Source: Stomatobaculum sp. (GTDB lineage: Bacteria; Bacillota_A; Clostridia; Lachnospirales; Lachnospiraceae). Taken from it: a stretch of 29,863 nt of DNA. The notes under the pieces were generated by a model. That model worked only from the letters and a program-made list of their open reading frames with translations, did no database searches and was not told the origin of the DNA. Both the position numbers and the translations under genes were made by a program. Below, in pieces: positions 7,062 to 26,496 of the stretch (position 1 is the stretch's first letter; each line of letters starts with the position of its first letter). Location of the stretch: assembly GCA_017449925.1 (NCBI GenBank), contig JAFSYO010000173.1:1-29863 (forward strand), read 5' to 3'.

Positions 7062-7119
7062 CGTTCTACCTCCAGTTTTTCTTTTTAATCATACAGATAT
7101 TCTGTAAAAAATCCGGTAT

Positions 7120-11169: not shown

Positions 11170-11622
11170 ATGATTCTTCTGGATCCCAGGGACCATCGTC
11201 CCATCTACGAGCAGATCACGGACAAACTCTCGGAGCTGATCCTTCTGGGAGTTCTTCCCCCGGACAGTCCGCTTCCTTCCGTGCGGAGTCTTGCCTCAGA
11301 CCTCTCCATCAATCCGAACACCGTCCAAAGAGCTTATCTGGAACTTGAACGGAAAGGCTTTACCTATTCCGTCAAAGGAAAAGGCAGCTTTGCGGCGGAT
11401 CCGCACCATGCCCGCATCCAGAAACAGCAGCTGATCAGGACGGAACTGGAGAATATCGTCCGGAAAGCGGTGTCCTTATCTTTGCCGGAGGAGGATCTTG
11501 TCGAGGAGACAAGAAGACTTTACGCCATGTATTCCGAACAGCTGCTTCCTGCCCTCCGCACTGCGGCGGACGGCACCGGCAACATGGAGGACCGCAAAAA
11601 TACAGAAGGAGGCGCGGAATGA
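11170..11622 (+). CDS. GntR-family transcriptional regulator, YtrA subfamily
   Basis: A 150-residue regulator. Residues about 10-75 form the winged helix of GntR proteins (PIYEQITDKL, PLPSVRSLASDLSINPNTVQ, AYLELERKGFTYSVKGKGSF). The short helical C-terminal part (about 75-130) without a ligand domain is typical of the YtrA subfamily, which controls adjacent ABC transporters and often answers cell-envelope stress. The C-terminal about 20 residues (TAADGTGNMEDRKNTEGGAE) look like a disordered tail. AAGGAGG lies 8 bases before the ATG. Its stop overlaps the ATPase start (ATGA), so regulator and exporter are co-translated under the operator at 11125-11151. Confidence 0.92.
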   Translation: MILLDPRDHRPIYEQITDKLSELILLGVLPPDSPLPSVRSLASDLSINPNTVQRAYLELERKGFTYSVKGKGSFAADPHHARIQKQQLIRTELENIVRKAVSLSLPEEDLVEETRRLYAMYSEQLLPALRTAADGTGNMEDRKNTEGGAE

Positions 11623-15574: not shown

Positions 15575-15603
15575 AAAAAGACCGCTATTTCTGCGGTCTT
15601 TTT
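15575..15603. terminator. Bidirectional terminator shared by bioY and the DUF1576 gene
   Basis: A perfect 11-bp stem (AAAAAGACCGC / GCGGTCTTTTT) with a 7-base loop, flanked by A and T runs so that it works in both directions. The right arm and loop lie inside the last codons and the stop (15585-15587) of the minus-strand gene. Confidence 0.9.
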
Positions 15604-17030
15604 GCGTTTTCGTCCAGTGTCATCATATCGGAAAGATCGATCGTCTGGTTCATGGCGTCCCGCGGAGTCTTCACATAATGCTCCAGGATCGGGATCAGGA
15701 TCAGCGCGGCGATACCGGCAGTAAAACCGCCGTTGTAGAGCATCAGCCCACCATGCAAGGCTCCCGTCGCAGTGCAGAGCGCCGCACAGAGCGCACCGGC
15801 CGCCACTCCTGCCGCCTCACCGTATCGTCCCACGATGGGGCAGAGGCCGGTGGCGAAAGCGACGCTGTTGATGTAAGCCTGGGTGGAGACAGTCCATGTG
15901 GCATGGCCGCCGACCAGGTGGTTGAACAGCATGGCGATCAGGGACAACAAAGGGAATCCGAGGAAGATCGGCCACACATTCCGCGGATGCTGACCCATGG
16001 ATGTAAAGGTCAGCGCCGCGAAGATCACGCCGAAGGTCGGACCTGTAAAACCGGCCCCGCTTGTAAATTCCACCGCCAGATTGATATATCCCAGGAACAA
16101 AAGACCGTAGAGTCCGACATTGATGAGGCACAGAGGCATGCCGTATTTTTTGGCAAAATTGCTCTGGTAGCCGGTGTCCAGCAGAAGATGCCTGAGTCCC
16201 CGGAAGCTTTTACAGTTCAGGTACCATCCGGCCAGAAGGCACAGAAGAAAGATCGTTATAAAATACAGATTCCCGAACAGTTCATAGGAACGGCCGAACC
16301 GGTTGTAGACGCCGTTGGTGTAGATGGGTACCACCGGCACCGTCACGCCCACAGTCCTGTAAAGGAAATTGAAGACCAGGAATCCGAACATACCATATGC
16401 CAGGCCGCCGTTATACAGGTTATAACCTTTGTGCCACGCTCTCACACCGGGCAGGACTGCCGGGGCGACAAAAGCGATGACAAAGGCAAAGAGCACTGTC
16501 AGCAGGATCCCCTTCGGATTCAGGGAAGCCTCCCCCGCAACAAAGGTAGCTGAGTTGGTGTATCGGAACAAAAGCTCGCTCACAAAGGGACTGAAGCAGG
16601 TGGAGAACATACAGACATGAAGGTTCTGGTTGTAATCCAGGTTCTTCAGCTTCAGGTACAGGAAAGGCGCCAGAAAACATGGCCACATGTTGAGAAAATT
16701 AAGGCCGTAGAAACAGTGGGCAATGACCAGGAAATAGCCCGCCAGTGTATTCACATGGGAAGGCCCGGGCAGAAGGATCATGGAAGCGCTCATCACGGCG
16801 CCGCAAAGCCCCGCGTTCAGAAATGCCGCGGGGAGACTTCCGATGTTGAAGTAATCCGTCACCAGCGGCCCCGGCGTCACCAGGATCCTCAAAAAATCCT
16901 GTCCCAGTGTTCCCCAGGTCCCGGTGTAAGTCGCTCCCGCGGCAGCCGCAAGAAACAACGAAGCTGAAAGTCCGATGGTAAGTCCGTCGATGATCCTGCT
17001 GGTCCATGATTCTGATGTATCTATTATCAT
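15585..17030 (-). CDS. DUF1576-family integral membrane protein
   Basis: A 481-residue polytopic membrane protein with about ten or more hydrophobic segments. It matches DUF1576 proteins, which are common in clostridia and have no assigned role. Motifs seen include SRIIDGLTIGLSASLFLAAA at the N-terminus, MLLPGPSHVNTLAGYFLVIA, the repeated GGLAYGMFGFLVF and GGFTAGIAALILI segments, and SMGQHPRNVWPIFLGFPL. The repeated glycine-rich segments suggest an internal duplication, as in many transporters. The frame is open to 17066, but the ATG at 17030 with GGAGGG 6 bases upstream is preferred. It converges on bioY, and no functional link with biotin is shown. Confidence 0.82.
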   Translation of the reverse strand: MIIDTSESWTSRIIDGLTIGLSASLFLAAAAGATYTGTWGTLGQDFLRILVTPGPLVTDYFNIGSLPAAFLNAGLCGAVMSASMILLPGPSHVNTLAGYFLVIAHCFYGLNFLNMWPCFLAPFLYLKLKNLDYNQNLHVCMFSTCFSPFVSELLFRYTNSATFVAGEASLNPKGILLTVLFAFVIAFVAPAVLPGVRAWHKGYNLYNGGLAYGMFGFLVFNFLYRTVGVTVPVVPIYTNGVYNRFGRSYELFGNLYFITIFLLCLLAGWYLNCKSFRGLRHLLLDTGYQSNFAKKYGMPLCLINVGLYGLLFLGYINLAVEFTSGAGFTGPTFGVIFAALTFTSMGQHPRNVWPIFLGFPLLSLIAMLFNHLVGGHATWTVSTQAYINSVAFATGLCPIVGRYGEAAGVAAGALCAALCTATGALHGGLMLYNGGFTAGIAALILIPILEHYVKTPRDAMNQTIDLSDMMTLDENAKRPQK

Positions 17031-17125
17031 ATCTTCCCTCCGGCAGTTCAGAGCTTTTCTTTGCATTTCTTTAACTTTTAGTATAACGCTGCGGAGAGAT
17101 TTTTGGTGGTTTCAAAAGTAAACAA

Positions 17126-17353: not shown

Positions 17354-17437
17354 GCAGAGATGGCGGAATTGGCAGACGCGCACGGTTCAGGTCCGTGTGA
17401 CAGCAATGTCATGAGGGTTCAAGTCCCTTTCTCTGCA
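17354..17437 (+). tRNA. tRNA-Leu (CAG), integration target
   Basis: An 84-nt class II tRNA starting GCAGAGATGGCGGAATTGGC. Anticodon stem CACGG/CCGTG encloses TTCAGGT, so the anticodon is CAG (Leu). Acceptor GCAGAGA pairs with TCTCTGC; discriminator A; CCA not encoded. The last 17 bases belong to the 18-bp attachment repeat, so the tRNA stays intact after integration. Confidence 0.96.
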
Positions 17438-17438
17438 C
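17421..17438 (+). repeat. attL of the integrated element (18-bp core)
   Basis: AAGTCCCTTTCTCTGCAC covers the T-arm 3' side and acceptor 3' strand of tRNA-Leu(CAG). An identical copy lies at 26448-26465, and the flanking bases differ on both sides. Confidence 0.9.
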
Positions 17439-17447
17439 TACTTTTTC

Positions 17448-17472
17448 AGCACTGGTTATCCAGTGCTTTTTT
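17448..17472 (+). terminator. Terminator behind tRNA-Leu (CAG), supplied by the element
   Basis: AGCACTGG (17448-17455) pairs with CCAGTGCT (17460-17467) around a 4-base loop, followed by six T. It lies inside the element just right of attL. Confidence 0.88.
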
Positions 17473-17580
17473 CATGCCGAAAATGGCTTAACCACGCTGT
17501 TTATCGGTTCTTTCACTTCTTCTGTAACTGTCTTTAGAGTGCCGCCTTTTGCCGCCGAAAAACCACCTTTTTTGACCTTC

Positions 17581-17682
17581 CTGCGGTCACTCCTGCGGTC
17601 AAATCTGCGGTCAGGAAATGGCCTGTTTCCTTGGATTCCTGGCATTGCCGCCGGGCGCTTTCGGGATCCCCTGCGGTCAAAT
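17581..17682 (+). repeat. Left-end arm-type repeats (CTGCGGTCA, 12-bp period)
   Basis: CTGCGGTCA occurs at 17581, 17593 and 17605, exactly 12 bp apart, and again at 17671 in the form CTGCGGTCAAAT. Two copies with the same spacing and linker recur at 26388-26408 near attR. Paired repeats at both ends of an integrating element are characteristic of integrase arm sites. Apart from these and the terminator, I see no gene between 17438 and 17812. Confidence 0.75.
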
Positions 17683-17764
17683 TCCCCGATTCCCCTTTTA
17701 CGCCCTGTTCCGGGACTTCCTGAGACCCGTTTTCCTGCCCTTCTTCACAACCGGGATCGTCTGA

Positions 17765-17789
17765 TATAATGATGATAACCTGTATACAG
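17765..17789 (+). promoter_or_regulatory. -10 box and CTGTATACAG palindrome upstream of the ArpU-type gene
   Basis: A perfect TATAAT (17765-17770) lacks a convincing -35 box at 16-18 bp. Ten bases on is the palindrome CTGTATACAG (17780-17789). The layout suggests an activator-dependent or repressed promoter. Confidence 0.4.
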
Positions 17790-17812
17790 TATTCAGAATG
17801 TGAGGCCGTGCC

Positions 17813-18163
17813 ATGGAAAGAAACACGATGGAGCTTGAGCGGGTGAGGGATTTTCTGAGCGACTACCATCGGGCAAAGAAAGGATTGCAGTATGCAGAGG
17901 AGTGCATTGAAGAACTGCAAGGAGCTGGCGCCAATCCGGGCGATGACCTGAAGCAGATGAAGAAGGGCTGTGAAGATCGCATGCACAGGGTCGCTTCTGC
18001 CGTGTCTATGATTCATGACGATGACGCCCGGATGGTGGTTTTCTGCCGTTTCATCAAGCTCATGAACGTCGACGAGACAGCGGAACACACTTGCTTCTCT
18101 TCCCGCCATACCCAGAGGATCGTGAACAGGGGATTGGCGGAGCTGTCCCGGATCATCAGCTAA
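17813..18163 (+). CDS. Sigma-like / ArpU-type phage transcriptional regulator
   Basis: A 116-residue protein with a helical N-terminal half (ERVRDFLSDYHRAKKGLQYAEE) and a C-terminal helix-turn-helix resembling sigma region 4: RFIKLMNVDETAEHTCFSSRHTQRIVNRGLAEL. This pattern is typical of ArpU/DUF1492-type late-gene regulators of firmicute phages, which activate the packaging and structural operon. It is the leftmost gene of the element, and no late genes follow it. It could act on a helper phage, on the element itself, or be a leftover. GAGG lies 7 bases before the ATG; M6 (position 17828) is an alternative start. Confidence 0.7.
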   Translation: MERNTMELERVRDFLSDYHRAKKGLQYAEECIEELQGAGANPGDDLKQMKKGCEDRMHRVASAVSMIHDDDARMVVFCRFIKLMNVDETAEHTCFSSRHTQRIVNRGLAELSRIIS

Positions 18164-18254
18164 AGCACATGAGGACATGAAAACAGCCCCGCACAAGGCC
18201 AGGCACCCAACGGAGCTGCAAAAAATGATAAATCCTGTTCGTATTGTACCACGT

Positions 18255-18905
18255 TCATGTGATCGGCTTCCATGGATCAGGCGGAGAAAGCGCCTTGAAT
18301 GGGTCGCAGAGCGCACATCTTTCCGAGCAAATAGCGGCGTCTTTCCTGCTGACCCGCCGGGCCTTCCGGTCAATCAGCCATTCAGTTTCAAGCGCTAAGA
18401 TCTGATATACCTTTTCGGTAAATTCTTCCATTTCTTCGGGGGACACAGAAAGCACTCTTGACGGTTCCCGGCTTACTTCCCTTTCATGGTTTTCGCATAC
18501 GAAGTATTTCCCGCCCTTACCCTCTCTCATATCCAAGAAAACCTCATATCCCAGATCATAAAGCAGTCCCCGCATTGAGTATAAACGATGCTCTGTTGAA
18601 ATCGACACGGTTCTTACTTCTTCCGTGTCCCTTGGCGTCTGCTTCAACAGCAGATAATCCGCACTCACGCCGAGCACATCCCCGAACTGTTCCGCCCACG
18701 TTGCACCATAACCACGCCTGCCTTTGATGATATTATTGATGTTCTGAGAGGAAACACCTGCCCTTCTGGATAATTCCGCCTGACTCATTCCCGCATTGTC
18801 TAAGCACTCTTTAAGGCGTGTACCCTGCTCCTTCCATTCCGCCCGTTGCCAGTCTGGCGCCTCTTGCCACTTCGGAACACCATTCGTTGTTTTTCCCATA
18901 GTCAT
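18255..18905 (-). CDS. Xre/CI-like repressor of the element
   Basis: A 216-residue DNA-binding protein on the opposite strand to all early genes, the usual position of a lysogeny repressor. The helix-turn-helix lies at about residues 27-87: LKECLDNAGMSQAELSRRAG, VSSQNINNIIKGRR, then FGDVLGVSADYLL. The C-terminal about 120 residues have no S24 peptidase Ser/Lys motif that I can see, so RecA-stimulated self-cleavage is unlikely. Two in-frame ATGs compete (18905 and 18899); AAGG is 4 bases from the first and 10 from the second. The 190-bp region upstream holds seven ATTGTC half-sites, presumably its operators. Confidence 0.85.
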   Translation of the reverse strand: MTMGKTTNGVPKWQEAPDWQRAEWKEQGTRLKECLDNAGMSQAELSRRAGVSSQNINNIIKGRRGYGATWAEQFGDVLGVSADYLLLKQTPRDTEEVRTVSISTEHRLYSMRGLLYDLGYEVFLDMREGKGGKYFVCENHEREVSREPSRVLSVSPEEMEEFTEKVYQILALETEWLIDRKARRVSRKDAAICSERCALCDPFKALSPPDPWKPIT

Positions 18906-18915
18906 CCATCCTTAT

Positions 18916-19049
18916 ATTGTCTTTTCTGTATTGTCTATAAATGCACCAAAACGATTCAAAATACACCATATTCCAAAGCTCTATTGTCTAAATAATGACA
19001 ATTTTAAATTGTCTATATGGACAATATAATAATACCATAGACAGACAAT
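18916..19049. promoter_or_regulatory. Operator cluster (ATTGTC half-sites) and divergent early promoter region
   Basis: ATTGTC lies at 18916, 18930, 18983 and 19008, and its complement GACAAT at 18997, 19020 and 19044. Two pairs form inverted repeats: 18983-19002 (8-bp centre) and 19008-19025 (6-bp centre). A perfect TATAAT for rightward transcription (19025-19030) touches the second pair. This is the expected layout of a CI/Cro-type switch. Confidence 0.75.
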
Positions 19050-19094
19050 TATAGCAAGCGAACGGCATTTACAGCAAAGAAAGGAGCATGGAAA

Positions 19095-19313
19095 ATGGGG
19101 AGACTCAGGACGGACACGATCACAGACATGAAGAAGAAGAGACTTTTAAACACAAGGGAAATGCAGGGATATATCGGACAGGGTAAGGATCTGGCCCGGA
19201 GATTCTGCGATGAGATCGGAGCAACACGGAAATTCGGGAGCCGGGTGCTGTTTGACCGGGAAGTGATCGACAGGGCTCTTGATCGTATGGCGCTTGAAGC
19301 GTCCGCAAGGTAA
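19095..19313 (+). CDS. Excisionase-like small DNA-binding protein
   Basis: A 72-residue basic protein, LNTREMQGYIGQGKDLARRF followed by IGATRKFGSRVLFDREVIDR. The pattern of a short winged-helix turn with an RKFGxRVLFD wing resembles excisionase/DUF6462 proteins of clostridial elements, which bend DNA at attachment sites or act as early regulators. AAAGGAG lies 9 bases before the ATG. It is the first rightward gene after the operator cluster and is 14 bp from the next gene. Confidence 0.7.
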   Translation: MGRLRTDTITDMKKKRLLNTREMQGYIGQGKDLARRFCDEIGATRKFGSRVLFDREVIDRALDRMALEASAR

Positions 19314-19327
19314 GAAAGGAGACAGCT

Positions 19328-19717
19328 ATGGGATACGACGGCTATGTTTCACGGGAAGGATTCTCAGGAGATTTGCAGGGGGAATTGTTGAAGAATATCC
19401 CTTACGGAAAGAAGAACGCCATTCCGATGAAGGTTTTAGCAGCTAAGATGGGCGTCAGTGATCGGAAGCTCCGGGCCATGATCAAGGAAGCAAGGATCGA
19501 CAGGGCGCTTATTGCACTCGGTAAGGGCGGCAAGGGATATTATCGGCCTGAGACAAAAGAAGAACTTGAAGAATTCCTTGCTTTCATGGACAAAAGCGCA
19601 CGGACTCATTACATCTGCACAAACGGAGCCAGGGCGGCGTTGCAGAATATAGAGGAAGGCCGTACGGAATGGAAAGCAGAATACCGTCAGACAGACCTAT
19701 GGGAACAGGGGGATTGA
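19328..19717 (+). CDS. Unknown helix-turn-helix protein of the early region
   Basis: A 129-residue protein. Residues about 30-55 (NAIPMKVLAAKMGVSDRKLRAMIKEARID) form a likely helix-turn-helix, followed by GKGGKGYYRPETKEELEEFL, a winged-helix-like end. It probably binds DNA. The place between the excisionase-like gene and the replication initiator suggests an accessory replication or regulatory role. I recognise no named family. AGGAG lies 6 bases before the ATG, and the next gene starts 3 bases after its stop. Confidence 0.65.
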   Translation: MGYDGYVSREGFSGDLQGELLKNIPYGKKNAIPMKVLAAKMGVSDRKLRAMIKEARIDRALIALGKGGKGYYRPETKEELEEFLAFMDKSARTHYICTNGARAALQNIEEGRTEWKAEYRQTDLWEQGD

Positions 19718-19720
19718 CTT

Positions 19721-20554
19721 ATGGGGGAGCGCAGAATGGTTTCCCGGTCAGTGATTCGGACGGATCAGTTTTTAGATATGCCGCTGAGCGCTCAGGCTTT
19801 ATACGTCCACCTGAATTTGGATGCAGATGATGACGGATTCGTGGCAAACCCGAATACCATCCGAAGGATGATCGGGGCAAGCGCAGACGATATGAAAATC
19901 CTTATGGCGAAGAAGTTTGTCCTTGCCTTTGATAATGGCGTGGTAGTTATTCGGCACTGGCGCCAGATGAACACGCTTCAGAATGACAGGTATAAACAGA
20001 CCGTTTTCAAGGATCAGTATAAGGCCCTGAAGCTCCATGACGATAAAATCTATTATCCCGAAGGCCCTGATTCCGGGCTGATTCGTGACTGTTTCCAAAC
20101 TGATTCCAATCTGGATACAGACTGTTTCCATAGTGGTTCCAGTTCGGAACCTCAACTTAACTTAACAGAACACAACATAACACAACATAACTCAACCCAA
20201 CCCAAGGAACCCGGAACCAAGAACAAAAAGCGTTCTGGCGCTGTGGCGCCTGTGGTGGATGACCCGGATCTGAATCAGGCTTTATTGGATTTTGCGGAGC
20301 ACAGGAAGAATCTTAAAAAGCCTTTGACTGATAAAGGCATGAGCTTACTCCTGAAGAGACTGGAGAAGCTGGCACCAGATAACAGAACCCGGATCAGGAT
20401 TCTTGAGCAGTCCATGTTGCAGGGGTGGCAGGGGGTCTTTCCTCTGGATGAAAACGGAGCTTCCGGGAAGGGAAAGGACAGGTATCAGCCCGTCATGGAA
20501 TTTGGAGAAAGCGCCATGAATGGGGGTGTGCCTGATGATTTCTACATGCAGTGA
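19721..20554 (+). CDS. Phage-type replisome organizer / replication initiator
   Basis: A 277-residue protein. The N-terminal about 100 residues, with RSVIRTDQFLDMPLSAQALY, then LNLDADDDGFVANPNTIRRM and RHWRQMNTLQNDRYKQTVF, match the N-terminal winged-helix domain of phage replisome organizers (DnaD-like initiators of lactococcal and clostridial phages). A low-complexity, Asn/Thr/Gln-rich linker (about residues 140-165) is encoded by the decamer array at 20151-20200. The C-terminal part (FAEHRKNLKKPLTDKGMSLL and on) resembles the domain that contacts other replication proteins. It would open the element's origin and recruit the helicase loader encoded next. Confidence 0.8.
   Translation: MGERRMVSRSVIRTDQFLDMPLSAQALYVHLNLDADDDGFVANPNTIRRMIGASADDMKILMAKKFVLAFDNGVVVIRHWRQMNTLQNDRYKQTVFKDQYKALKLHDDKIYYPEGPDSGLIRDCFQTDSNLDTDCFHSGSSSEPQLNLTEHNITQHNSTQPKEPGTKNKKRSGAVAPVVDDPDLNQALLDFAEHRKNLKKPLTDKGMSLLLKRLEKLAPDNRTRIRILEQSMLQGWQGVFPLDENGASGKGKDRYQPVMEFGESAMNGGVPDDFYMQ
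20151..20200 (+). repeat. Decamer array inside the initiator gene, candidate origin
   Basis: Five consecutive 10-mers share the pattern CnCAACnnAA: CTCAACTTAA, CTTAACAGAA, CACAACATAA, CACAACATAA, CTCAACCCAA. The 10-bp period places them on one DNA face. Phage initiator genes often carry their own binding repeats at this place, so this is a candidate origin. Confidence 0.6.
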
Positions 20555-21215
20555 GCAGGATTTCATGAAGGTTGTCCTTTTCCTGAAAGGCGCTTACGGA
20601 TCCCCGACTTTTCTTGCTGATGCTGGCATGGTGAAAGTCTGGTATCAGTCTCTTAAAGATCTTCCCTTCGATGACCTGCGGGCGGCGGCACAGCGGCATG
20701 TGGCAACGCAGAAATTCCCGCCGAGTATTTCAGACCTGCGGGCCGCTTCCGCCGAGAGCAAACAGGATGGGGCCATGCAGGCGTGGCAGGAAGTCATAAA
20801 GGCCATGTCCCGGAGCGCATACAGCGCAGAGCAGGAGTTTGCAGCTCTTCCGCTCCTGTCAAGGCGGATCATAGGAAGCCCGAACGTGCTCCGGTCATGG
20901 GGCCTGACGGAATCGGGGGAAGTCCATACCGTAATCATGTCGCACTTCTTGAAGGCATGGCGGGAAGAATCCGAGAAACAGAGATTGATTGACCTGATGC
21001 CTGAGCCCCTGAAACCGCAGTTACCAGAGCAGAAAACGGAGCGGATCAGCGCCAGAACGGCGGAGATACCCGAAAAACAACCATCAGATGAGGCGGAAGG
21101 CCGGGAGAAAACCAAGGAAGAAATAAACGCCCTGTTCAATGAGACCATGCGGAAGATCAGAAAGCGGTCACAGCAGAGGCGGTGGGAACAGATGCGGAAG
21201 CAGGGGCCTGAATAA
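20535..21215 (+). CDS. Helicase-loader/inhibitor-like replication protein (G39P-type)
   Basis: A protein of 226 residues from the chosen ATG. The N-terminal about 75 residues (QDFMKVVLFLKGAYGSPTF, VWYQSLKDLPFDDLRAAAQR, TQKFPPSISDLRA) match the fold of SPP1 G39P-type helicase loader/inhibitor proteins, in which a short four-helix domain with the KFPPxIxDLR motif binds the replicative helicase. The middle resembles helicase-loader relatives. The C-terminus is highly charged (EEINALFNETMRKIRKRSQQ). The start is uncertain: ATG 20520 (five residues longer) or 20535, both overlapping the initiator gene. GGGGG upstream of 20535 and family alignment favour the latter. Confidence 0.65.
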   Translation: MISTCSEQDFMKVVLFLKGAYGSPTFLADAGMVKVWYQSLKDLPFDDLRAAAQRHVATQKFPPSISDLRAASAESKQDGAMQAWQEVIKAMSRSAYSAEQEFAALPLLSRRIIGSPNVLRSWGLTESGEVHTVIMSHFLKAWREESEKQRLIDLMPEPLKPQLPEQKTERISARTAEIPEKQPSDEAEGREKTKEEINALFNETMRKIRKRSQQRRWEQMRKQGPE

Positions 21216-21535
21216 CACAGAGCCGGGAATGATGCGGGGGAAAAGAGAATCTGCCAGGGTGCGACTTCCGCTTTGCGGGATCCATGGCGGCGGCGGGAAT
21301 CGGCGGGAGTTATGCACAAACCGCTGTGGATAATGCCCGGAGAAGGGGAAGGAAGTCACCATAGATTTTTTTCTTCTTAGCCGGGAAAAACGCACCCTCG
21401 ACGCCCCGCAGTACCCCTACCCCTCAGGAAGTACCTTTCCGCTTTTCAGCAGGATTTTTGAATTGTCAGAAAATTCCGAAAAATAACAGACAAATCGACA
21501 GAAAAACATATTATGTTGACCAATGAGGATATACC
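21216..21535. other. Gap region with inverted DnaA-box pair
   Basis: I find no convincing gene in these 320 bases. They contain TTATGCACA (21310-21318, one mismatch to the DnaA box) and TGTGGATAA (21325-21333, perfect on the reverse strand) in inverted order 6 bp apart, a T-rich tract at 21363-21378, and an AT-rich stretch (about 21450-21520) before the next gene. Confidence 0.55.
21310..21333. repeat. Inverted pair of DnaA-box-like 9-mers
   Basis: TTATGCACA, six bases, then TGTGGATAA. The second is a perfect DnaA box on the minus strand and the first has one mismatch. It lies between two replication/recombination genes of the element. Confidence 0.6.
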
Positions 21536-21946
21536 ATGCAGTCATTCACTATAACAGGAAGGCTTGACGGTCTGAACGAATTGATAAACGCAAACCGTAT
21601 GAACAGATACGAAGGAGCGAAACGAAAGCGGGCCTATACAGAATTATGTGCATGGTCAGCACGGGCGGCACGGATCAGGAAGCCGGGACGCTTTCCCGTC
21701 ATGGTATGGATTCATTGGATAGAACCGAACAGCCGCAGAGACCCGGATAATATAGCATCAGGGAAGAAATATATCCTTGATGGGCTAATGTCGGCGGGGG
21801 TGCTTCCTAATGATGGGCCGAAACAGATACGGGGCTTTCTGGACACGTTCGGCACGGATCAGCGGGAGCCCCGCATAATTGTAAGGCTATATGAGGACGG
21901 GGAGCCGCTACCATGGGAAGAGCTCACACAGTACGCCGGGCAATAG
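21536..21946 (+). CDS. RusA-family Holliday junction resolvase
   Basis: A 136-residue endodeoxyribonuclease of the RusA family, which cleaves four-way junctions formed during phage replication and recombination. The key region is RRDPDNIASGKKYILDGLMS, with DPDN carrying the metal-binding aspartates, followed by AGVLPNDGPKQIRGF, whose Asp belongs to the catalytic set. The N-terminal strand (FTITGRLDGLNELINANRMN) is also family-typical. GAGGA lies 8 bases before the ATG. The next small gene overlaps its 3' end. Confidence 0.88.
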   Translation: MQSFTITGRLDGLNELINANRMNRYEGAKRKRAYTELCAWSARAARIRKPGRFPVMVWIHWIEPNSRRDPDNIASGKKYILDGLMSAGVLPNDGPKQIRGFLDTFGTDQREPRIIVRLYEDGEPLPWEELTQYAGQ

Positions 21947-22066
21947 AAAAGGCCGCAGGGCGGGCGCCGCTGAGACCTAATCTATCCGCTTACATGCGGG
22001 CTATGGGATAATCTGATTCTATCATGGTATCAGGCAAGGGACAAGGAACAGGCCGCACTAATCTAA
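21913..22066 (+). pseudogene. Small phage gene split by a +1 frameshift
   Basis: From ATG 21913 (GGAG 8 bases upstream, overlapping the RusA end) the frame reads MGRAHTVRRAIEKAAG, then LRPNLSAYMRAMG and a stop at 22009. In the +1 frame, the bases from 22001 read LWDNLILSWYQARDKEQAAL and stop at 22066. The two halves look like one protein of about 50 residues, because the second half is well formed and has no start of its own. A single-base indel near 21998-22003, a sequencing error, or programmed frameshifting could explain it. Function unknown. Confidence 0.5.
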
Positions 22067-22108
22067 GCCCCGCCGATCATAGCGGAGCGGATGCCTGGAC
22101 TTTTCGTA

Positions 22109-22312
22109 TTATGTTCCCGATTCCATGCGGCGAGTGATTGCCTTTCTTATGTACTCATTTGAGGACTCACCCACGGCGGCGGCGGCTTCTTTGATTTTTT
22201 CGCTGTCACCTTTCGGAACCGTAAGATTGATTCGATCGTAGTTATTTTTCATGTATTTATTCACAGCTTTTTGCTGTGCCTTACTTACTTTCTTCTTCTC
22301 TTCATCAGACAT
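22109..22312 (-). CDS. Ribbon-helix-helix (Arc/MetJ-type) repressor
   Basis: A 67-residue protein with a lysine-rich N-terminus (EEKKKVSKAQQKAVNKYMK) and a ribbon-helix-helix domain: strand DRINLTVPKG, helix SEKIKEAAAAVGE, then SSNEYIRKAITRRME. These proteins dimerise and bind palindromes through the strand. It is one of only two minus-strand genes in the element. Its upstream region has three copies of TATCTGCGCA-type sites, one lying inside the promoter of the divergent operon, so it is very probably a local repressor. It could instead be an antitoxin; no toxin gene is adjacent. Confidence 0.82.
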   Translation of the reverse strand: MSDEEKKKVSKAQQKAVNKYMKNNYDRINLTVPKGDSEKIKEAAAAVGESSNEYIRKAITRRMESGT

Positions 22313-22432
22313 ACTAAAACCTTCTCTTTCATTAAAGCCGGGTGCGGCTCATTGGCGGAAAGAATACTGACCATTGGAGCTGCAAAAATGCCTGCACCTT
22401 CTCCACGATACCATAATCTTATCACGAAAAGC

Positions 22433-22512
22433 TATCTGCGCAAATAGAAATATTTCACAAAAATATCTGCGCAAATATGTGAACTATGCCGATTGATATA
22501 TCTGCGCAGATA
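22433..22512. promoter_or_regulatory. Three TATCTGCGCA-type operators between divergent genes
   Basis: TATCTGCGCAAATA at 22433-22446 and 22464-22477, and the perfect palindrome TATCTGCGCAGATA at 22499-22512. The start-to-start distances are 31 and 35 bp, close to three helical turns. Site 1 overlaps a candidate leftward promoter of the repressor gene (TTGCGC, 16 bp, TAAGAT), which would allow autoregulation. Confidence 0.85.
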
Positions 22513-22521
22513 GTGTATGAT
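22493..22521 (+). promoter_or_regulatory. Promoter of the second early operon, with operator in the spacer
   Basis: TTGATA (22493-22498), a 17-bp spacer and TATGAT (22516-22521). Operator 3 (22499-22512) fills 14 of the 17 spacer bases, so bound repressor must block polymerase. Confidence 0.8.
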
Positions 22522-22563
22522 ACAGACATGAAGCACGAAGGACAGCAACGAAAGGACAAGGAC

Positions 22564-22872
22564 ATGAGAAATTATTACAAAGATTACTACTTCGACATCG
22601 ACTTAGAAATCTACTTCGATGATCTGGGTGATTATACAGAAACAAGAGTAAAAGACATTCTGGATAAGGCGGGTGCATGGAGCGTTTGCATCACAGACAT
22701 AATCCATGATGGGGAAGATGATGTAAAGGTAAAAGCCTCTGTCACACTTACCATTATCGGATACAGTGAGGAAGCCGCTCTTGAAGATGCGATGGAACCG
22801 ATAAGAAGAGCACTTCTTAAAGAAGCAAACGACTATGATTGGGAACTCGACAGAGTAGAGGTTGTAGCATAA
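22564..22872 (+). CDS. Unknown acidic small protein
   Basis: A 102-residue protein that I do not recognise. About a quarter of the residues are Asp or Glu (26 against 11 Lys/Arg). It opens with an aromatic, acidic segment MRNYYKDYYFDIDLEIYFDD and continues with an alternating strand-helix pattern (VKVKASVTLTIIGYSEEAAL). It is the first gene behind the RHH-controlled promoter. An in-frame ATG at 22528 lies at the predicted transcription start and lacks a ribosome binding site, so ATG 22564 (AAAGGA upstream) is preferred. A DNA-mimic or inhibitor role is possible but unsupported. Confidence 0.65.
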   Translation: MRNYYKDYYFDIDLEIYFDDLGDYTETRVKDILDKAGAWSVCITDIIHDGEDDVKVKASVTLTIIGYSEEAALEDAMEPIRRALLKEANDYDWELDRVEVVA

Positions 22873-22887
22873 CAATTACAGGGCCGG

Positions 22888-22914
22888 GCGGGGCGGCTAA
22901 TCCCCGCAGAAAGG
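22888..22914 (+). other. Hairpin plus CAGAAAGG linker, copy 1
   Basis: GCGGGG (22888-22893) pairs with CCCCGC (22902-22907), followed at once by AGAAAGG, the ribosome binding site of the 54-aa gene. It is the first of several similar intergenic modules in this operon. Confidence 0.6.
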
Positions 22915-22922
22915 ACAAAGAA

Positions 22923-23087
22923 ATGACACGCTATAGAGAAAACCTTATGAATCAGATGAACAGCATTATGGACGATGTGACTGTAGAACTTGAAAGAATC
23001 ATCCATATGGCGGAACAGGAAGAAGCGGACTACAGCCGGGAAGATCTGATAAACGATCTGACAAGGCTCTGCAATTCCCTTTGCTGA
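22923..23087 (+). CDS. Unknown small helical protein (54 aa)
   Basis: MTRYRENLMNQMNSIMDDVT followed by an acidic helix with HMAEQEEADYSREDLINDLT. It is predicted almost wholly helical. The open frame extends upstream, but the hairpin and AGAAAGGACAAAG linker (22888-22920) set the start at 22923. No family is recognised. It lies in the RHH-controlled operon. Confidence 0.6.
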   Translation: MTRYRENLMNQMNSIMDDVTVELERIIHMAEQEEADYSREDLINDLTRLCNSLC

Positions 23088-23099
23088 TTATAAAGCCGG

Positions 23100-23133
23100 G
23101 CGGGGGCGGCTGAAATCCCCCGCAGAAAGGCGG
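23100..23133 (+). other. Hairpin plus CAGAAAGGCGG linker, copy 2
   Basis: GCGGGGG (23100-23106) pairs with CCCCCGC (23117-23123), followed by AGAAAGGCGG just before the ATG at 23139. The surrounding bases (GCCGGGCGGG...GGCGGCT) match copy 1. Confidence 0.6.
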
Positions 23134-23138
23134 GCGCC

Positions 23139-23324
23139 ATGATTGGAAGTTATTACGACCTGACAGATATTGAGATTGTGGAACTGATGAACTCCATTGA
23201 TTCAGACAATTACAGCACGGGCCTGAATGATCGGTTCCATTCCCCAAGATGGTGGGCCCTTGAGTCCATTTTACGGGAGCGGCACGGGAACGACTGGAGC
23301 ACAGCCCTTTCCGTAACAGCATAA
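23139..23324 (+). CDS. Unknown small protein (61 aa) with RERHG tail
   Basis: MIGSYYDLTDIEIVELMNSI, then an aromatic segment (RFHSPRWWALESI) and a C-terminal LRERHGNDWSTALSVTA. The tail resembles that of the zinc-ribbon protein at 24996-25199 (IRERHGERWTLAVDAAS). Not recognised. AAAGG lies 10 bases before the ATG. Confidence 0.6.
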   Translation: MIGSYYDLTDIEIVELMNSIDSDNYSTGLNDRFHSPRWWALESILRERHGNDWSTALSVTA

Positions 23325-23329
23325 TAAAA

Positions 23330-23363
23330 CCGCTGTCCTATCGGCATGACGGGGAGAAGGGAA
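23330..23363 (+). repeat. 34-bp direct repeat, copy 1
   Basis: Identical at 32 of 34 positions to 24683-24716. It contains CGGCATGACGGGGAGAA and here supplies the ribosome binding site of the 46-aa gene. Confidence 0.8.
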
Positions 23364-23369
23364 AAAGCT

Positions 23370-23510
23370 ATGGGATATACTAACGATGTGGATCATGTGG
23401 AATTCCGGGAACTTCCAAACGGCAACATTGAAGTTACCTGCTTCGGTAGCTTCGGGGTATGGACGGATGAAATCCCCGCTTCGGATATGTTCCCCGATTA
23501 TGACAGGTAA
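23370..23510 (+). CDS. Unknown small protein (46 aa)
   Basis: MGYTNDVDHVEFRELPNGNI, then EVTCFGSFGVWTDEIPASDM and an acidic end (FPDYDR). A compact beta-rich pattern with the strong ribosome binding site GGGGAGAAGGGA upstream supports it as a real gene despite its length. Not recognised. Confidence 0.55.
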   Translation: MGYTNDVDHVEFRELPNGNIEVTCFGSFGVWTDEIPASDMFPDYDR

Positions 23511-23570
23511 CAGGCGGAACAGGGGCGGCGCTCCAATTCTCCGGGTGCCGCTGCCCCCACGCCCCATTTA

Positions 23571-23597
23571 AGCCCCCTGCGGGGCTCAGAAAGGCGG
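23571..23597 (+). other. Hairpin plus CAGAAAGGCGG linker, copy 3 (no gene follows directly)
   Basis: AGCCCC (23571-23576) pairs with GGGGCT (23581-23586), followed by CAGAAAGGCGG. No start codon follows within ribosome-binding distance; the next gene starts at 23694 behind another CAGAAAGGCGG (23678-23688). This may mark a lost small gene. Confidence 0.5.
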
Positions 23598-23693
23598 TTC
23601 CCCTTTTCGGCGGGATTTTCCCATTGAAACCCATTCACGGGGCGGGCTGAAGCGTACGGAAAGCCACGGCCCCATTTCAGAAAGGCGGCAAGT

Positions 23694-24287
23694 ATGGCAC
23701 TGACTTTTGAAAGCATCGAGAAACTGAACCAGACACTTCCCAAAGTTGACTTTAAGGGAAAGGCTTATACCATGGTGGCAAGCCGGGTGCAGGCGTTCCG
23801 AATGTTGGTTCCTGACGGATCAATCACCACGGAAGTTGTAAGCATGGATTCCGAAACAGTGGTCATGAAAGCGACCATAGCGGACGAGACCGGGCGGGTG
23901 CTTGCGACCGGAACAGCCTACGAATCAAAGGGCTCCAATTACATCAATAAGACCAGCTACGTTGAGAACTGCGAAACTTCTGCGGTAGGGCGTGCGCTCG
24001 GTATGCTCGGCATTGGATCGGATTCAAGCATGGCAAGCGCTGACGAGATGAGCAACGCCATTGCGGCACAGGCGGCGGCACAGGATGCGGAGCAGGTACG
24101 GACAAACGAAATGCGGGCCGAAGTCCTGCGGATCATCAATAAGTATCCTGACCGGGCCGAAAGACTTACGGAACAGATCAGAGCTTCCTACGGGGTCGAC
24201 CGTGTGACAGATCTTTTCGGGGATGACCTGCGGCATTGCCTGAACAGATTACGGAGCACTGACAGGCTTTGGAGCGAAGAAGGCTGA
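23694..24287 (+). CDS. Putative single-strand annealing recombinase (Rad52/ERF-like)
   Basis: A 197-residue protein. Its core (KGKAYTMVASRVQAFRMLVP, an alternating strand region with ESKGSNYIN, then TSYVENCETSAVGRALGMLG) resembles phage annealing proteins of the Rad52/ERF superfamily, in which a helix with an ETSAVGRAL-like pattern follows a three-strand sheet. These proteins pair single strands during phage recombination and fit beside RusA. The C-terminal about 60 residues (EVLRIINKYPDRAERLTEQI) are helical. The superfamily call is by pattern only and could be wrong; position and size agree. CAGAAAGGCGG precedes the ATG. Confidence 0.6.
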   Translation: MALTFESIEKLNQTLPKVDFKGKAYTMVASRVQAFRMLVPDGSITTEVVSMDSETVVMKATIADETGRVLATGTAYESKGSNYINKTSYVENCETSAVGRALGMLGIGSDSSMASADEMSNAIAAQAAAQDAEQVRTNEMRAEVLRIINKYPDRAERLTEQIRASYGVDRVTDLFGDDLRHCLNRLRSTDRLWSEEG

Positions 24288-24377
24288 ACCCCATTTCAGA
24301 AACCCATAGCGGCGGCGGGGGTGCCGGGATCGGTGGCCCCTGCCCCATTCCCTAAAATGACAGAAAGGGAAGGCGGA

Positions 24378-24551
24378 ATGACCATTGAACAGTCTGATGA
24401 AATCCTGCGGATGAATGATTGCAGAAAGGCAATCGCCCGAACCATAGAACTTGCGGATGACGATATTCTGGACGGTCTTTTCTTCGTGGTGCTCAGCTAT
24501 GTAAGAGCGGATGAAGATAAAAGAAGATGGATCGGGCTTGCGGCGAGATGA
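24378..24551 (+). CDS. Unknown small protein (57 aa)
   Basis: MTIEQSDEILRMNDCRKAIA followed by RTIELADDDILDGLFFVVLS and YVRADEDKRRWIGLAAR. Helical and acidic, with one hydrophobic helix face (ILDGLFFVVLSYV) that looks amphipathic rather than membrane-spanning. CAGAAAGGGAAGGCGG lies directly upstream. Not recognised. Confidence 0.55.
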   Translation: MTIEQSDEILRMNDCRKAIARTIELADDDILDGLFFVVLSYVRADEDKRRWIGLAAR

Positions 24552-24572
24552 CCAGAAAGGAAAGGCGGAAGT

Positions 24573-24653
24573 ATGGACATGACCAGTATCATCCTGGCAA
24601 TGATCGGCGCTTATATTGCGGGCCGGGTGCATGACATGATGGGGGTGGGGTGA
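24573..24653 (+). CDS. 26-residue putative membrane microprotein
   Basis: The frame MDMTSIILAMIGAYIAGRVH continues DMMGVG to a TGA at 24651. AAAGGCGG lies 4 bases before the ATG, and the stop overlaps the GTG start of the next gene (GTGA), so it is well placed for coupled translation. The hydrophobic run TSIILAMIGAYIAG could span or dip into the membrane. It is too short for family recognition. Confidence 0.5.
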   Translation: MDMTSIILAMIGAYIAGRVHDMMGVG

Positions 24654-25012
24654 AGGAATCCCCAAACCAGAAGAATGAAAAGCCGCTGACCTATCGGCAT
24701 GACGGGGAGAAAGGAATCATCTGCACAATGGAAAAACTGAACAAAGCACAGGCGGCGGCACTGTTTGAGGCGAACGCTTTTCTATTCGGATCCATAGACG
24801 CAGTTCCAGAGGAAACCGTAATAGACCTTTTCGGGGAAGATGCCGCAGAGCATGTGAAGTCACAAGGCATGGGGCGGCTCATCAATGGTTATGGAGTCGG
24901 GGACTATACCGCAACATATTACACTTTTGAAGGTTTTATGAGGGCCGCAACCTATCACAATATCAAGAAGCTCATGGAAAGAAGTCGGGGGAAGCATGAA
25001 AAACATGAATAA
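24650..25012 (+). CDS. Unknown protein (120 aa)
   Basis: A 120-residue protein whose body (NKAQAAALFEANAFLFGSID, DLFGEDAAEHVKSQGMGRLI, YTATYYTFEGFMRAATYHNI) is helical and not recognised. The start is GTG 24650 if the GTGA overlap with the microprotein is used, or ATG 24729. The first about 26 residues (to GIICT) are encoded over the second copy of the 34-bp repeat, which acts as a leader elsewhere. That favours ATG 24729, although its AAAGGA is 12 bases away. Confidence 0.6.
   Translation: MKESPNQKNEKPLTYRHDGEKGIICTMEKLNKAQAAALFEANAFLFGSIDAVPEETVIDLFGEDAAEHVKSQGMGRLINGYGVGDYTATYYTFEGFMRAATYHNIKKLMERSRGKHEKHE
24683..24716 (+). repeat. 34-bp direct repeat, copy 2
   Basis: Two mismatches to 23330-23363. 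Here it is read through in frame (PLTYRHDGEKG) if translation starts at 24650. Confidence 0.8.
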
Positions 25013-25199
25013 AATCAAATGGTGCTGTATCTGCGGGCGTGAGATCATTCCCGCACGGGATGAAGAAATGAACAGGATCAGGCATTTTGAGGAAGAAGGC
25101 GAGTGCTGTTCTGTCTGCAATGCGGCGGGTGCAATGCCCGCCAGAATCCGGGAGCGGCACGGGGAGCGGTGGACTCTGGCCGTTGATGCCGCAAGCTGA
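24996..25199 (+). CDS. Zinc-ribbon small protein (67 aa)
   Basis: Two CxxC knuckles (WCCICG near residues 9-14 and CCSVC near 37-41) in a 67-residue protein indicate a zinc ribbon. The C-terminal IRERHGERWTLAVDAAS resembles the tail of the 61-aa protein at 23139. It overlaps the previous gene by 17 bases. ATG 24996 or the in-frame ATG 25005 may be the start. Function unknown; nucleic-acid or protein binding is usual for such ribbons. Confidence 0.65.
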   Translation: MKNMNKIKWCCICGREIIPARDEEMNRIRHFEEEGECCSVCNAAGAMPARIRERHGERWTLAVDAAS

Positions 25200-25220
25200 G
25201 AGGAAAAGAAAGGCGGGGAC

Positions 25221-26372
25221 ATGGCGAAGGGAAAGAAGAAAAAGACCGCACGGGTGCAGAGCAATTTCACCTATGACGGGAAGCGGTATTATGTTTACGG
25301 CGCTACGCTGAAAGAAGCCCATCTGAAAGCGGATGAAAAACTGAAGGAGCTGGAAGCGGGTGCACGGAAGCGGTCAAAAGACCTGACCTTTTCGGAATAT
25401 GTCGAAAGGTGGTCGGAAGCACGGGAAAAGACTGTCAAGGGTGCCACGATCAGGAAGCAGGAATTACAGTTCAAGGCGGCATCCTCTGCGGTGATCGACA
25501 GGAACGGGAAACACTTCGGGGACATTCCCCTGAAGGATCTGGAAGTGCAGGACATCCGGGAGCTGCAAAAAGCGCTGTCCCGCCGGGTGGATCGGGACGG
25601 GAAGCCCCTGCCGGGAAAGAAAGAACGATCCCCGCAAACGATCAATGATATTATTGCCCTTGTGTCCCATGTCCTGAGCGATGCGGTCAATGAGCGGGCC
25701 ATGGACTGGAACCCATGCAAGGGCGTGAAGAATCTGAAGCGTGAGGACAGGCCCGCACGGGAGACTATACACAGGGCGCTTACGGAAGAGGAACTGATTC
25801 TCTTTTTCACAGCCGCAGAAGAATCATGGTATTATTACCTGTATCGTTTTCTTCTGGCATCCGGGTGCAGATGCGGCGAAGCGGGGGCGCTCATGCTTTC
25901 CGATGTGAAGCCCGACCGGGTGGAGATCAGGCGGACGGTCACGAAAAACCAGTATGGAACAAATGTGATCGGGGACACTCCAAAGACCGGGCAGGGGCGG
26001 CGGGACATTCCCATGACAGACGCCATCCGGGAAGCGATCAGCGCACAGAAGGCCGTCAACGCTTCCGTGTTCGGGGATGTGATCGGAATGAATGATACCA
26101 TCTTTCGGACGGGGTGGGGCAATATCCTCGTTCCTGCGAACGTGGACAGGGACATTGAAAGGATCTGCCGCCGGGTGGGGATGAAGAAATTCACGGCCCA
26201 TGCCTTCCGGGATACATTCGCAACAAGGTGCATCAGTTCCGGGATGAATCCGAAAACCCTTCAGGAAATCTTAGGCCATGCGGATTTCAGCGTTACGATG
26301 AACGTATACGCCCATGCGCTAGATGAGACCAAAGCGCAGGAGATGCGGCGGGTGATCGCAATTCCTGTTTGA
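25221..26372 (+). CDS. int: Tyrosine-family site-specific integrase
   Basis: A 383-residue phage integrase with three parts: an N-terminal arm-binding domain (about residues 10-50, FTYDGKRYYVYGATLKEAHL), a core-binding SAM-like domain (about 55-165), and a catalytic domain. Catalytic residues are R217 (GCRCGE), K242 (probable), H327 and R330 (AHAFRDT), H353 (LGHAD) and nucleophile Y363 (MNVYAH), all present. The protein recombines the 18-bp core at tRNA-Leu(CAG). The arm domain fits the 12-bp repeats near both ends. Unusually, it is the last gene of the rightward operon, beside attR. GAAAGGCGG lies 7 bases upstream. Confidence 0.95.
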   Translation: MAKGKKKKTARVQSNFTYDGKRYYVYGATLKEAHLKADEKLKELEAGARKRSKDLTFSEYVERWSEAREKTVKGATIRKQELQFKAASSAVIDRNGKHFGDIPLKDLEVQDIRELQKALSRRVDRDGKPLPGKKERSPQTINDIIALVSHVLSDAVNERAMDWNPCKGVKNLKREDRPARETIHRALTEEELILFFTAAEESWYYYLYRFLLASGCRCGEAGALMLSDVKPDRVEIRRTVTKNQYGTNVIGDTPKTGQGRRDIPMTDAIREAISAQKAVNASVFGDVIGMNDTIFRTGWGNILVPANVDRDIERICRRVGMKKFTAHAFRDTFATRCISSGMNPKTLQEILGHADFSVTMNVYAHALDETKAQEMRRVIAIPV

Positions 26373-26387
26373 TTCCAGATTGCACCC

Positions 26388-26410
26388 CTGCGGTCACTCC
26401 TGCGGTCAAA
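26388..26410 (+). repeat. Right-end arm-type repeats (CTGCGGTCA, 12-bp spacing)
   Basis: CTGCGGTCA at 26388-26396 and 26400-26408, with the same CTC linker and AAA tail as the copies at 17581-17603, so 23 bp are identical. It lies 37 bp before attR. Confidence 0.8.
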
Positions 26411-26447
26411 CAGGGGAAAAACCGCACGGAATAAGGACATAGTTTGT

Positions 26448-26465
26448 AAGTCCCTTTCTCTGCAC
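26448..26465 (+). repeat. attR of the integrated element (18-bp core)
   Basis: AAGTCCCTTTCTCTGCAC, identical to the tRNA-Leu(CAG) 3' end at 17421-17438. Confidence 0.9.
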
Positions 26466-26466
26466 G

Positions 26467-26496
26467 AAAAAGCACCGGTCGTCCGGTGCTTTTTTT
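26467..26496. terminator. Bidirectional terminator, probably the original tRNA-Leu terminator
   Basis: AAAAAGCACCGG (26467-26478) pairs with CCGGTGCTTTTT (26483-26494) around a 4-base loop, with T and A tracts on both sides. It begins 1 base after attR, so before integration it would have followed the tRNA. It now ends the integrase operon and the minus-strand operon from the right. Confidence 0.9.

Follow-up and report, generated by a model that had tools for sequence, protein, structure and literature searches.

A compact integrase-last element at tRNA-Leu(CAG) in Stomatobaculum sp. and its relatives: a probable phage satellite lineage

Introduction

The locus described here raises the question of how a small integrated element moves when it encodes its own regulation, replication and integration, and no virion or conjugation gene is recognised in it. 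The element lies at a tRNA-Leu(CAG) gene on contig JAFSYO010000173.1 of Stomatobaculum sp. (Lachnospiraceae; assembly GCA_017449925.1), of which positions 1 to 29,863 were analysed and are called the window below. It is judged likely to be a helper-dependent phage satellite of an unnamed lineage in which the integrase gene comes last. That it is a self-excising, self-replicating integrated element is held with high confidence, and that it is moved by a helper phage is considered probable. From its sequence, it is an integrative element with intact ends and predicted regulation and replication genes, and its lineage is found both integrated and as apparent circles.

Lachnospiraceae are gut and rumen bacteria, and most of the satellites studied in depth belong to staphylococci, streptococci, enterobacteria and vibrios; the main satellite survey, which appeared in NAR in 2023, reportedly covered thousands of satellites. 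The known satellite families listed in one passage of a review include none tied there to Lachnospiraceae (PMC11389934). A literature search combining satellite terms with Clostridia, Lachnospiraceae and related genera returned, from partial texts in a limited library, no recognised description of an integrase-last family, which does not prove the family undescribed.

Results

Boundaries of the window element

The 9.0-kb element is bounded by an 18-bp repeat of tRNA-Leu(CAG), which was reported in a preliminary description of this DNA and was recovered exactly at 17421-17438 and 26448-26465; the sequence shows the element inserted at the 3' end of the tRNA gene, which the insertion restores. 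The features at the two ends are as follows (coordinates, strand, feature, basis).

17354-17438, +, tRNA-Leu(CAG), the attachment gene, intact at the left end of the element (ARAGORN)
17421-17438, +, attL core, 18 bp, AAGTCCCTTTCTCTGCAC, the last 18 bases of tRNA-Leu(CAG) (exact repeat of 26448-26465)
17448-17472, +, hairpin resembling a terminator, immediately inside attL (84% similar to the hairpin outside attR at 26471-26495)
17580-17679, +, arm-type integrase sites of the left end, CCTGCGGTCA in three exact copies and one with 1 mismatch (placing near att)
26387-26408, +, right arm-type sites, two CCTGCGGTCA (placing near att)
26448-26465, +, attR core, 18 bp, 75 bp past the integrase stop (exact copy of AAGTCCCTTTCTCTGCAC)

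The 16-bp core of this repeat gave exactly two matches in the window at up to 2 mismatches, with 0.02 expected and none of 100 shuffles reaching two. CCTGCGGTCA occurs exactly five times in the 29.9-kb window, each time near an att site and in the same orientation (17580, 17592, 17670, 26387 and 26399), and these repeats are presumed to be arm-type sites of a lambda/Tn916-type integrase. Their placing is a stronger sign of this than their number, a mild excess: at up to 1 mismatch there are six, against 2.05 expected, and two of 100 shuffles reach six. Beyond the core, the two ends have 16 10-mers in common, a number reached by none of 300 random internal pairs. The hairpin inside attL resembles that outside attR, so the tRNA gene would keep a terminator after insertion; the region has no more terminator-like sites than chance would give (10, against 9.8 in shuffles).

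Gene content of the window element

Between these ends lie a regulator gene on its own, a leftward repressor gene and a mostly rightward series of genes that ends with the integrase.

17813-18163, +, ArpU/RinA-type (sigma region 4-like) regulator between attL and the repressor (phrog_36 8.6e-6; TIGR02937 6.7e-4, under the cut-off)
18255-18905, -, XRE-type repressor (HTH_19 1.6e-8; phrog_8 1e-12)
18916-19049, no strand, divergent control region; six half sites like ATTGTCTA as candidate operators (clustering)
19095-19313, +, excisionase-like small helix-turn-helix (HTH) protein (DUF6462 2.4e-4, under the cut-off; phrog_66 0.038)
19328-19717, +, phrog_2113 protein (2.8e-13; also in relative L100, 2.9e-13)
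19721-20554, +, DnaD-like replication initiator (phrog_8489 6.6e-56; 1115 homologues at E<=0.001)
20067-20132, +, 11-bp iteron-like repeats within the initiator gene, candidate origin (periodicity)
20520-21215, +, helicase-loader-like protein (phrog_9804 2.9e-28; phrog_2289 2.3e-11)
21310-21333, no strand, two facing DnaA-box-like sites after the loader gene (weak alone)
21536-21946, +, RusA-like Holliday junction resolvase (phrog_1682 1.2e-29)
22109-22312, -, ribbon-helix-helix (RHH) protein (phrog_13890 4e-18; similar genes upstream of the integrase in many relatives)
22564-25199, +, small genes, mostly without assignment, including a phrog_11717 protein (open reading frame scans)
25221-26372, +, tyrosine integrase, last gene (PF00589 7.2e-21; phrog_1 1.8e-65)

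The repressor, initiator, helicase-loader-like protein, resolvase and integrase named in the preliminary description were all confirmed by Pfam or PHROG matches, with the G39P Pfam match of the loader-like protein (2.6e-4) falling 0.1 bit below the cut-off. Its excisionase-like protein is less certain, the profile matches being weak, but an alignable gene, 46% identical, comes after the leftward regulator in the relative L076. The proposed annealing protein at 23694-24287 was not confirmed: the protein belongs to phage family phrog_11717 (2.6e-43), its structural model has a helix-three-strand-helix core, and because a Foldseek search with this model found no PDB match at E<=0.001, an annealing function is not claimed. 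The assignment of the ArpU-type regulator is weaker than those of the other genes but consistent.

Among the 18 window open reading frames (ORFs) scanned, from a list of those of at least 50 amino acids (aa), no structural, packaging, lysis or relaxase family was recognised apart from weak matches judged to be chance, namely terminase small subunit phrog_57 on a 129-aa protein (0.048), a terminase model on the integrase (0.094) and a NikA-like model on the RHH protein (0.019). This bears out the earlier reading of an element free of structural, packaging and lysis genes, with the integrase last and next to attR. The RHH protein also drew ADP-ribosyltransferase models under the cut-off (9.9e-4), likewise judged to be chance. 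The small protein at 24650-25012 and the ORF at 11492-11971 of relative L143 were seen by eye to share the motif VPEExVIxxFG.

Six of the 11 matches to ATTGTCTA in the window (up to 1 mismatch) fall in the 134 bp from the repressor to the small HTH gene; their number in the window as a whole does not exceed chance (14.5 expected), which leaves the clustering as the evidence. The iteron-like repeats match themselves at 0.48 at a period of 11 and 0.45 at 22, compared with 0.16-0.32 at other periods from 8 to 23. Four DnaA-box-like sites were found in the window (1.32 expected, six of 100 shuffles reaching four), a weak signal by itself.

Integrated relatives

Scans from the window integrase protein alone returned no relatives, which were found by alignment-based scans. 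Matches to the window integrase occur in at least seven of 397 genomes of one family (E<=1e-40) and in 11 of the 62 genomes of the genus of G001, both counts including G001 itself, the genome of uncultured Lachnospiraceae bacterium RUG12648 in which locus L076 lies. An alignment of eight integrases matched at least nine of 391 genomes of the class (1e-70); those of them placed on the integrase tree, G001 excepted, fall outside a 40-row clade. At most 4 or 5 candidates per genome were scored in the family and class counts, which are lower bounds.

Ends were sought at 27 genome loci with related integrases, and 11 proved to be compact elements with both ends marked by a core repeat, 5.2-11.9 kb from core to core. 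Their lengths in kb are given below.

L094 7.96; L095 10.26; L097 7.50; L098 11.92; L100 11.22; L035 5.86
L135 5.20; L138 5.40; L140 9.64; L141 5.66; L144 10.56

A tRNA gene (Leu, Gly, Lys, Gln or Trp) marks the site of nine of the 11, and none was found for L035 or L098. The compact integrase-last form recurs with different tRNA sites and with different replication genes, some relatives encoding primases. In all 12 elements, the window element included, 60-220 bp separate the integrase stop from the attR core, and in 10 of the 12 the sharing of short repeats from end to end is far above that of random internal pairs (at most 1 of 300 pairs having as many); with the ends chosen, L035 and L144 showed no such excess.

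Among side observations on these loci, genome G002 holds two different integrase-last elements (L035, 8481-14359, 5.9 kb; L100, 4507-15738, 11.2 kb) and a third related integrase. The compact relative L094 contains a RelE-like toxin gene at 7089-7555 (phrog_1213 2.9e-19) with a small gene upstream of it. Positions 1-7900 of L076 hold dense dispersed GC-rich repeats of ~40-150 bp between genes, one 42-nt family having 17 copies. For nine of the 36 best integrase homologues (P0121-P0156; the nine are 58-68% identical), the longest contig measures 8.4-10.2 kb, near the size of the element.

Apparent circles in viral records

IMG/VR was scanned with the integrase alignments, and records were called circular on an exact overlap of their ends, which is a sign from assembly and not proof. 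Six related records look closed, at 5.3-13.6 kb less the overlap (length, overlap).

L147, 5,581 bp, 77 bp
L150, 13,032 bp, 107 bp
L153, 13,756 bp, 107 bp
L154, 11,389 bp, 127 bp
L212, 5,442 bp, 123 bp
L213, 11,133 bp, only 24 bp

A TerS-type gene spans the joined ends of L213, and likewise in L212. Overlaps of at least 30 bp occur in five of the 137 loci of up to 14 kb among L145-L368, many of the 137 being cut pieces unable to show an overlap.

Eight att cores of integrated elements were then sought in the viral loci at up to 2 mismatches. Four of the six apparent circles carry exactly one copy of one core, located after the integrase. The exact core of L135 (tRNA-Gln) occurs once in L153, 74 bp past the integrase stop, and all four GTGTCAGTCA copies of that record surround it; the L100 core (tRNA-Leu) occurs once in L154 with 1 mismatch, 119 bp past the integrase; the L140 core (tRNA-Trp) occurs once in L147 with 2 mismatches on the other strand, ~160 bp past the integrase; and the L095 core (tRNA-Leu) occurs once in L212 with 2 mismatches, with three GTGGGTATAAA copies around it. 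Any of the eight cores was found in nine of the 133 other viral loci. L147, L153, L154 and L212 fit excised forms with a single attP.

Packaging and head genes in relatives

Several relatives carry a single packaging or head gene or a small number of them. L100 encodes an HNH nuclease (8.8e-16), TerL (phrog_9 9.7e-44) and an 86-aa scaffold-like protein (1.6e-9), with a phrog_1066 protein where TerS is expected, followed by a leftward ArpU-type gene and an RHH gene that precede the integrase; the same pair as in L100 lies beside TerL in L154 and L150. TerS was found in L135 (8.9e-8) and, as a weak match, in L136 (1.2e-4), a scaffold-like protein in L144 (4.4e-7) and a head maturation (prohead) protease in L153 (2.5e-40). 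Scaffold-like proteins are compared with the capsid-remodelling functions of satellites. With such functions, according to a passage of PMC6092414, satellites remodel the capsid of the helper.

A Pfam scan of 88 element proteins gave 20 families in total, of which only the L153 prohead protease has to do with virion assembly; families of capsid, portal or tail proteins, of lysis proteins and of relaxases are absent from the list; the PHROG scan of the same proteins is represented by 25 listed families of 59. The 88 proteins comprise 86 of the 136 called ORFs and two others. The 50 remaining ORFs are integrases, sigma factors, primases or helicases, TerL, HNH and three TerS-type or second-copy ORFs, together with two scanned window genes, an overlapping L144 call, antisense ORFs and one or two small genes of L150/L153. 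In the relatives, the scans covered mainly ORFs of at least 85 aa. The portal (PF04860) and capsid (PF05065) families were negative in 21 of 23 viral records.

The preliminary description had also remarked on an ArpU-type regulator standing alone at attL. Its placing is less odd in view of the relatives: L095 has a sigma factor and other genes between attL and its leftward regulator, and L145 has a TerL pair and a scaffold-like gene left of a leftward regulator of its own, both regulators being assigned by a reading of the ORFs. The predicted ArpU-type gene of the window sits in a slot where some relatives have sigma or terminase genes.

Seven further IMG/VR records (L156-L162) have near-identical related integrases at their right end. 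In L209 (the full record of L158; 6782-10690) and L211, a protein of ~1300 aa reads as a tail tape measure, and both also have a TerS-like gene, 22% identical to the TerS of L135. Neither PF04860 nor PF05065 matched in any of L156-L162.

Integrase phylogeny and searches of phage and plasmid records

In a maximum-likelihood tree of 68 integrases, from which L165 (260 aa) was left out, the window integrase falls in a 25-row clade (98/94) made up of 13 complete elements, seven integrase-last contexts and five ungrouped rows (L137, L139, L149, L151 and L152). One branch (97/88) sets off 12 rows, ten initiator loci and two Javan satellites, that were chosen because their integrase lies on the opposite strand and upstream of the replication genes.

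A DNA search of phages with positions 18700-26400 returned only 140-200 bp of the initiator at 68-70% identity, in five Streptococcus phage records. Plasmid integrases are below 60% identity in all 220 records, and at most 27.7% identical among the eight listed. MT836216 (L002), whose integrase is one of the best-covered matches in phage records, was rejected as a relative: from a reading of its genes it is a mobilizable element that encodes a relaxase-like protein, and it lies outside the 40-row clade.

Gene order compared with known systems

The initiator alignment gave 404 confirmed genome loci, and gene order was counted on the best 80. An integrase-like match lies upstream on the opposite strand in 21 of these 80 and downstream on the same strand in five; two loci show both and 56 none. 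The upstream position is thus the usual one. Only L076 and L035 among the best 80 combine the initiator with a downstream integrase of at least 33% identity.

In phage-inducible chromosomal islands (PICIs), as set out in a passage of PMC6092414, the integrase gene lies left of the master repressor gene and in the same direction, whereas that of the window is rightward and at the opposite end; because of this order the element is not called a PICI. The divergent regulator pair of PICIs, with xis to the right, may have a counterpart in the leftward repressor and the rightward small HTH gene, the latter weak as xis by profile. Where PICIs have a primase or initiator and then an origin, the window has an initiator and a loader, with no primase recognised and with the iterons inside the initiator gene. 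PICIs are without structural or lytic genes, and none was recognised in the window element. PICIs are further marked by att sites not known to be used by prophages, and by induction, packaging and interference that involve a helper phage. The same source, again in part, gives PICIs a packaging gene such as terS and a typical length of ~15 kb, which is not a strict limit (PMC6092414); no packaging gene is recognised in the 9.0-kb window element, and among its relatives, bounded at 5.2-11.9 kb, some have TerS-type genes.

The Streptococcus satellite Javan624 is likewise compact, with a leftward XRE regulator facing rightward genes, and its replication protein, 31% identical to the window initiator, is followed by a helicase loader in the same order. 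Its integrase and XRE regulator are, however, leftward at the left end, whereas the window integrase is rightward, last and at attR, and the Javan satellite integrases among those listed are 26-28% identical to that of the window. The PICMI, minimal satellites of Vibrionaceae, are also small and without recognised packaging genes, but are defined in the part of PMC10803314 consulted by integrase, AlpA, primase and a fis site, in contrast to the tRNA-Leu site and the absence of a primase found here. The cfPICI, a named phage satellite family in passages of PMC11389934 and PMC10803314, make their own capsids (PMC10803314, same passage), and neither the window nor the 88 proteins of relatives yielded a capsid family.

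The top PDB matches of the window integrase are chains named 'Int protein' in 6en0 and 6emy (4.9e-16), which are taken to be the Tn1549 integrase. Tn916/Tn1549-type elements would share a similar integrase catalytic part, and in them too the integrase comes last; the window differs in having no recognised conjugation module or relaxase and in having phage-type replication genes. The Clostridia temperate phage phiRgIBDN1 has a replisome organizer 38% related and an annotated RinA-family activator, but also a late module and an integrase near its repressor genes. The late module of a temperate prophage (terminase, portal, capsid, tail and lysis) was not found among the window proteins.

Discussion

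Several observations weigh against a satellite. No TerS, terminase, scaffold or capsid-redirection gene was found in the window copy by any library used, so that dependence on a helper is a deduction, and neither a helper nor induction or particles are known. No empty attB was found when the stretch with two tRNA genes was sought in the 62 genomes of the genus of G001; partial matches occur in 59 of the 62, and in G813, G817 and G822 the tRNA genes are tandem, unlike those of the window. The protein left of the element (15585-17066), presumably of DUF1576 type, has its closest homologue among the 397 genomes of one family in G001 (73%), and this tRNA is not present at the G001 locus beside that gene. 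Of the genome loci examined, 16 of 27 could not be bounded: repeats are present in L096 (15-bp, 4.3 kb), L119 (17-bp, 14.4 kb, integrase 25%) and L143 (a 23-bp arm-type repeat, 8.8 kb) and were not counted, and no end repeats were found in L076, L099, L117, L118, L120-L124, L136, L137, L139 and L142. None of the eight att cores occurs in the apparent circles L150 and L213 at up to 2 mismatches, and gene content from integrase to repressor varies greatly between members.

The integrase tree adds to these points. The label 'complete' needs 10 changes on the tree, and 47 of 500 shuffles are as low; being scattered in this way, completeness is not itself a clean mark of the clade. L149 (full record L210, 19.75 kb), one of the 25 rows, looks like a full phage with its genes in the ordinary order, with TerL at 30% by BLAST and, from a reading of its ORFs, head- and tail-like genes and an integrase beside the repressor. 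It is negative for PF04860 and PF05065 all the same, so these two families alone cannot prove the absence of a virion module. L166 and L167, two phages of 29 kb that encode a portal and an HK97-type capsid, sit on a long branch next to the 25 rows and outside them, for which a swap of integrase between phage and satellite is possible. With L149 in the clade and these two adjoining it, the integrase is not exclusive to satellites.

A satellite nevertheless appears the likeliest of the explanations weighed. The next, that a temperate phage lost its late region and left its early genes and integrase between att sites, was the alternative offered in the preliminary description and is considered unlikely. 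In its favour, the initiator, loader, RusA and ArpU-type genes are of phage type and have relatives in phages such as L001 and phiRgIBDN1, L149 of the same clade reads as a full phage, and no packaging gene was found in the window copy. A remnant does not sit well with both sets of arm-type sites being intact, or with a compact form that recurs at different tRNA sites, with different replication genes and as apparent circles. The integrase also lies beside the repressor in phiRgIBDN1 and L149, the two phages read for order; from such an arrangement, deletion of the late region would not by itself yield the order of the window. The preliminary description had named, as a refutation of a satellite, closest relatives that are full prophages carrying their late module between the genes seen here. 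The outcome speaks mainly against a remnant, though not cleanly, on account of L149; in that phage the integrase lies beside the repressor, so a simple excision of late genes from among these genes does not account for the window element. Since the form recurs with its own ends, apparent circles and partial packaging or head genes, a satellite family fares better than a remnant; the word 'undescribed' in the original suggestion is not proven.

Ranked after the remnant, and also doubtful, is a mobilizable element with only an oriT, moved by a conjugative helper, in which the RHH protein would be an oriT-binding accessory. The closest solved integrases (6emy/6en0, presumed Tn1549), the integrase-last order of Tn916-type elements and the weak NikA-like match of the RHH protein would agree with this. 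Set against it, no relaxase or transfer family was recognised in the window or in the 88 element proteins, oriT itself not having been searched, and the packaging and head genes of relatives point to phage. Least probable, and very much so, is a self-replicating integrated element without regular transfer between cells, akin to an integrating plasmid-like replicon; it would account for the element's own replication genes and for the smallest apparent circles, at 5.3-5.5 kb, but would leave the terminase, scaffold-like and head protease genes of relatives without evident use in the absence of particles.

As a satellite, the element probably works like a PICI. A helper phage would probably trigger derepression and so the expression of the rightward genes, after which the integrase and the small HTH protein would excise the element as a circle with one attP. 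The initiator may act on the iterons inside its own gene and load the helicase, with RusA resolving junctions. As no packaging gene is recognised in the window copy, the terminase and capsid of the helper would pack the circle, to which some relatives may bring their own TerS, TerL or head proteins.

More broadly, it is put at about an even chance that Lachnospiraceae host an unnamed and common integrase-last satellite lineage, the members of which plug different single virion-making steps into interchangeable slots around one repressor and integrase frame, the window copy being a stripped form that keeps only a late-type regulator. On the same even footing, these steps would be TerS alone, HNH-TerS-TerL, a scaffold-like protein, a head protease, and the tape-measure and TerS-like genes of the L156-L162 group. 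If this is true, Lachnospiraceae carry satellites of their own at a fair rate, with a related integrase in 11 of 62 genomes of one genus, and search models that expect the integrase beside the repressor could miss or misfile such elements. The varied packaging genes on one frame would, in turn, make it testable which single virion step suffices to redirect a helper phage.

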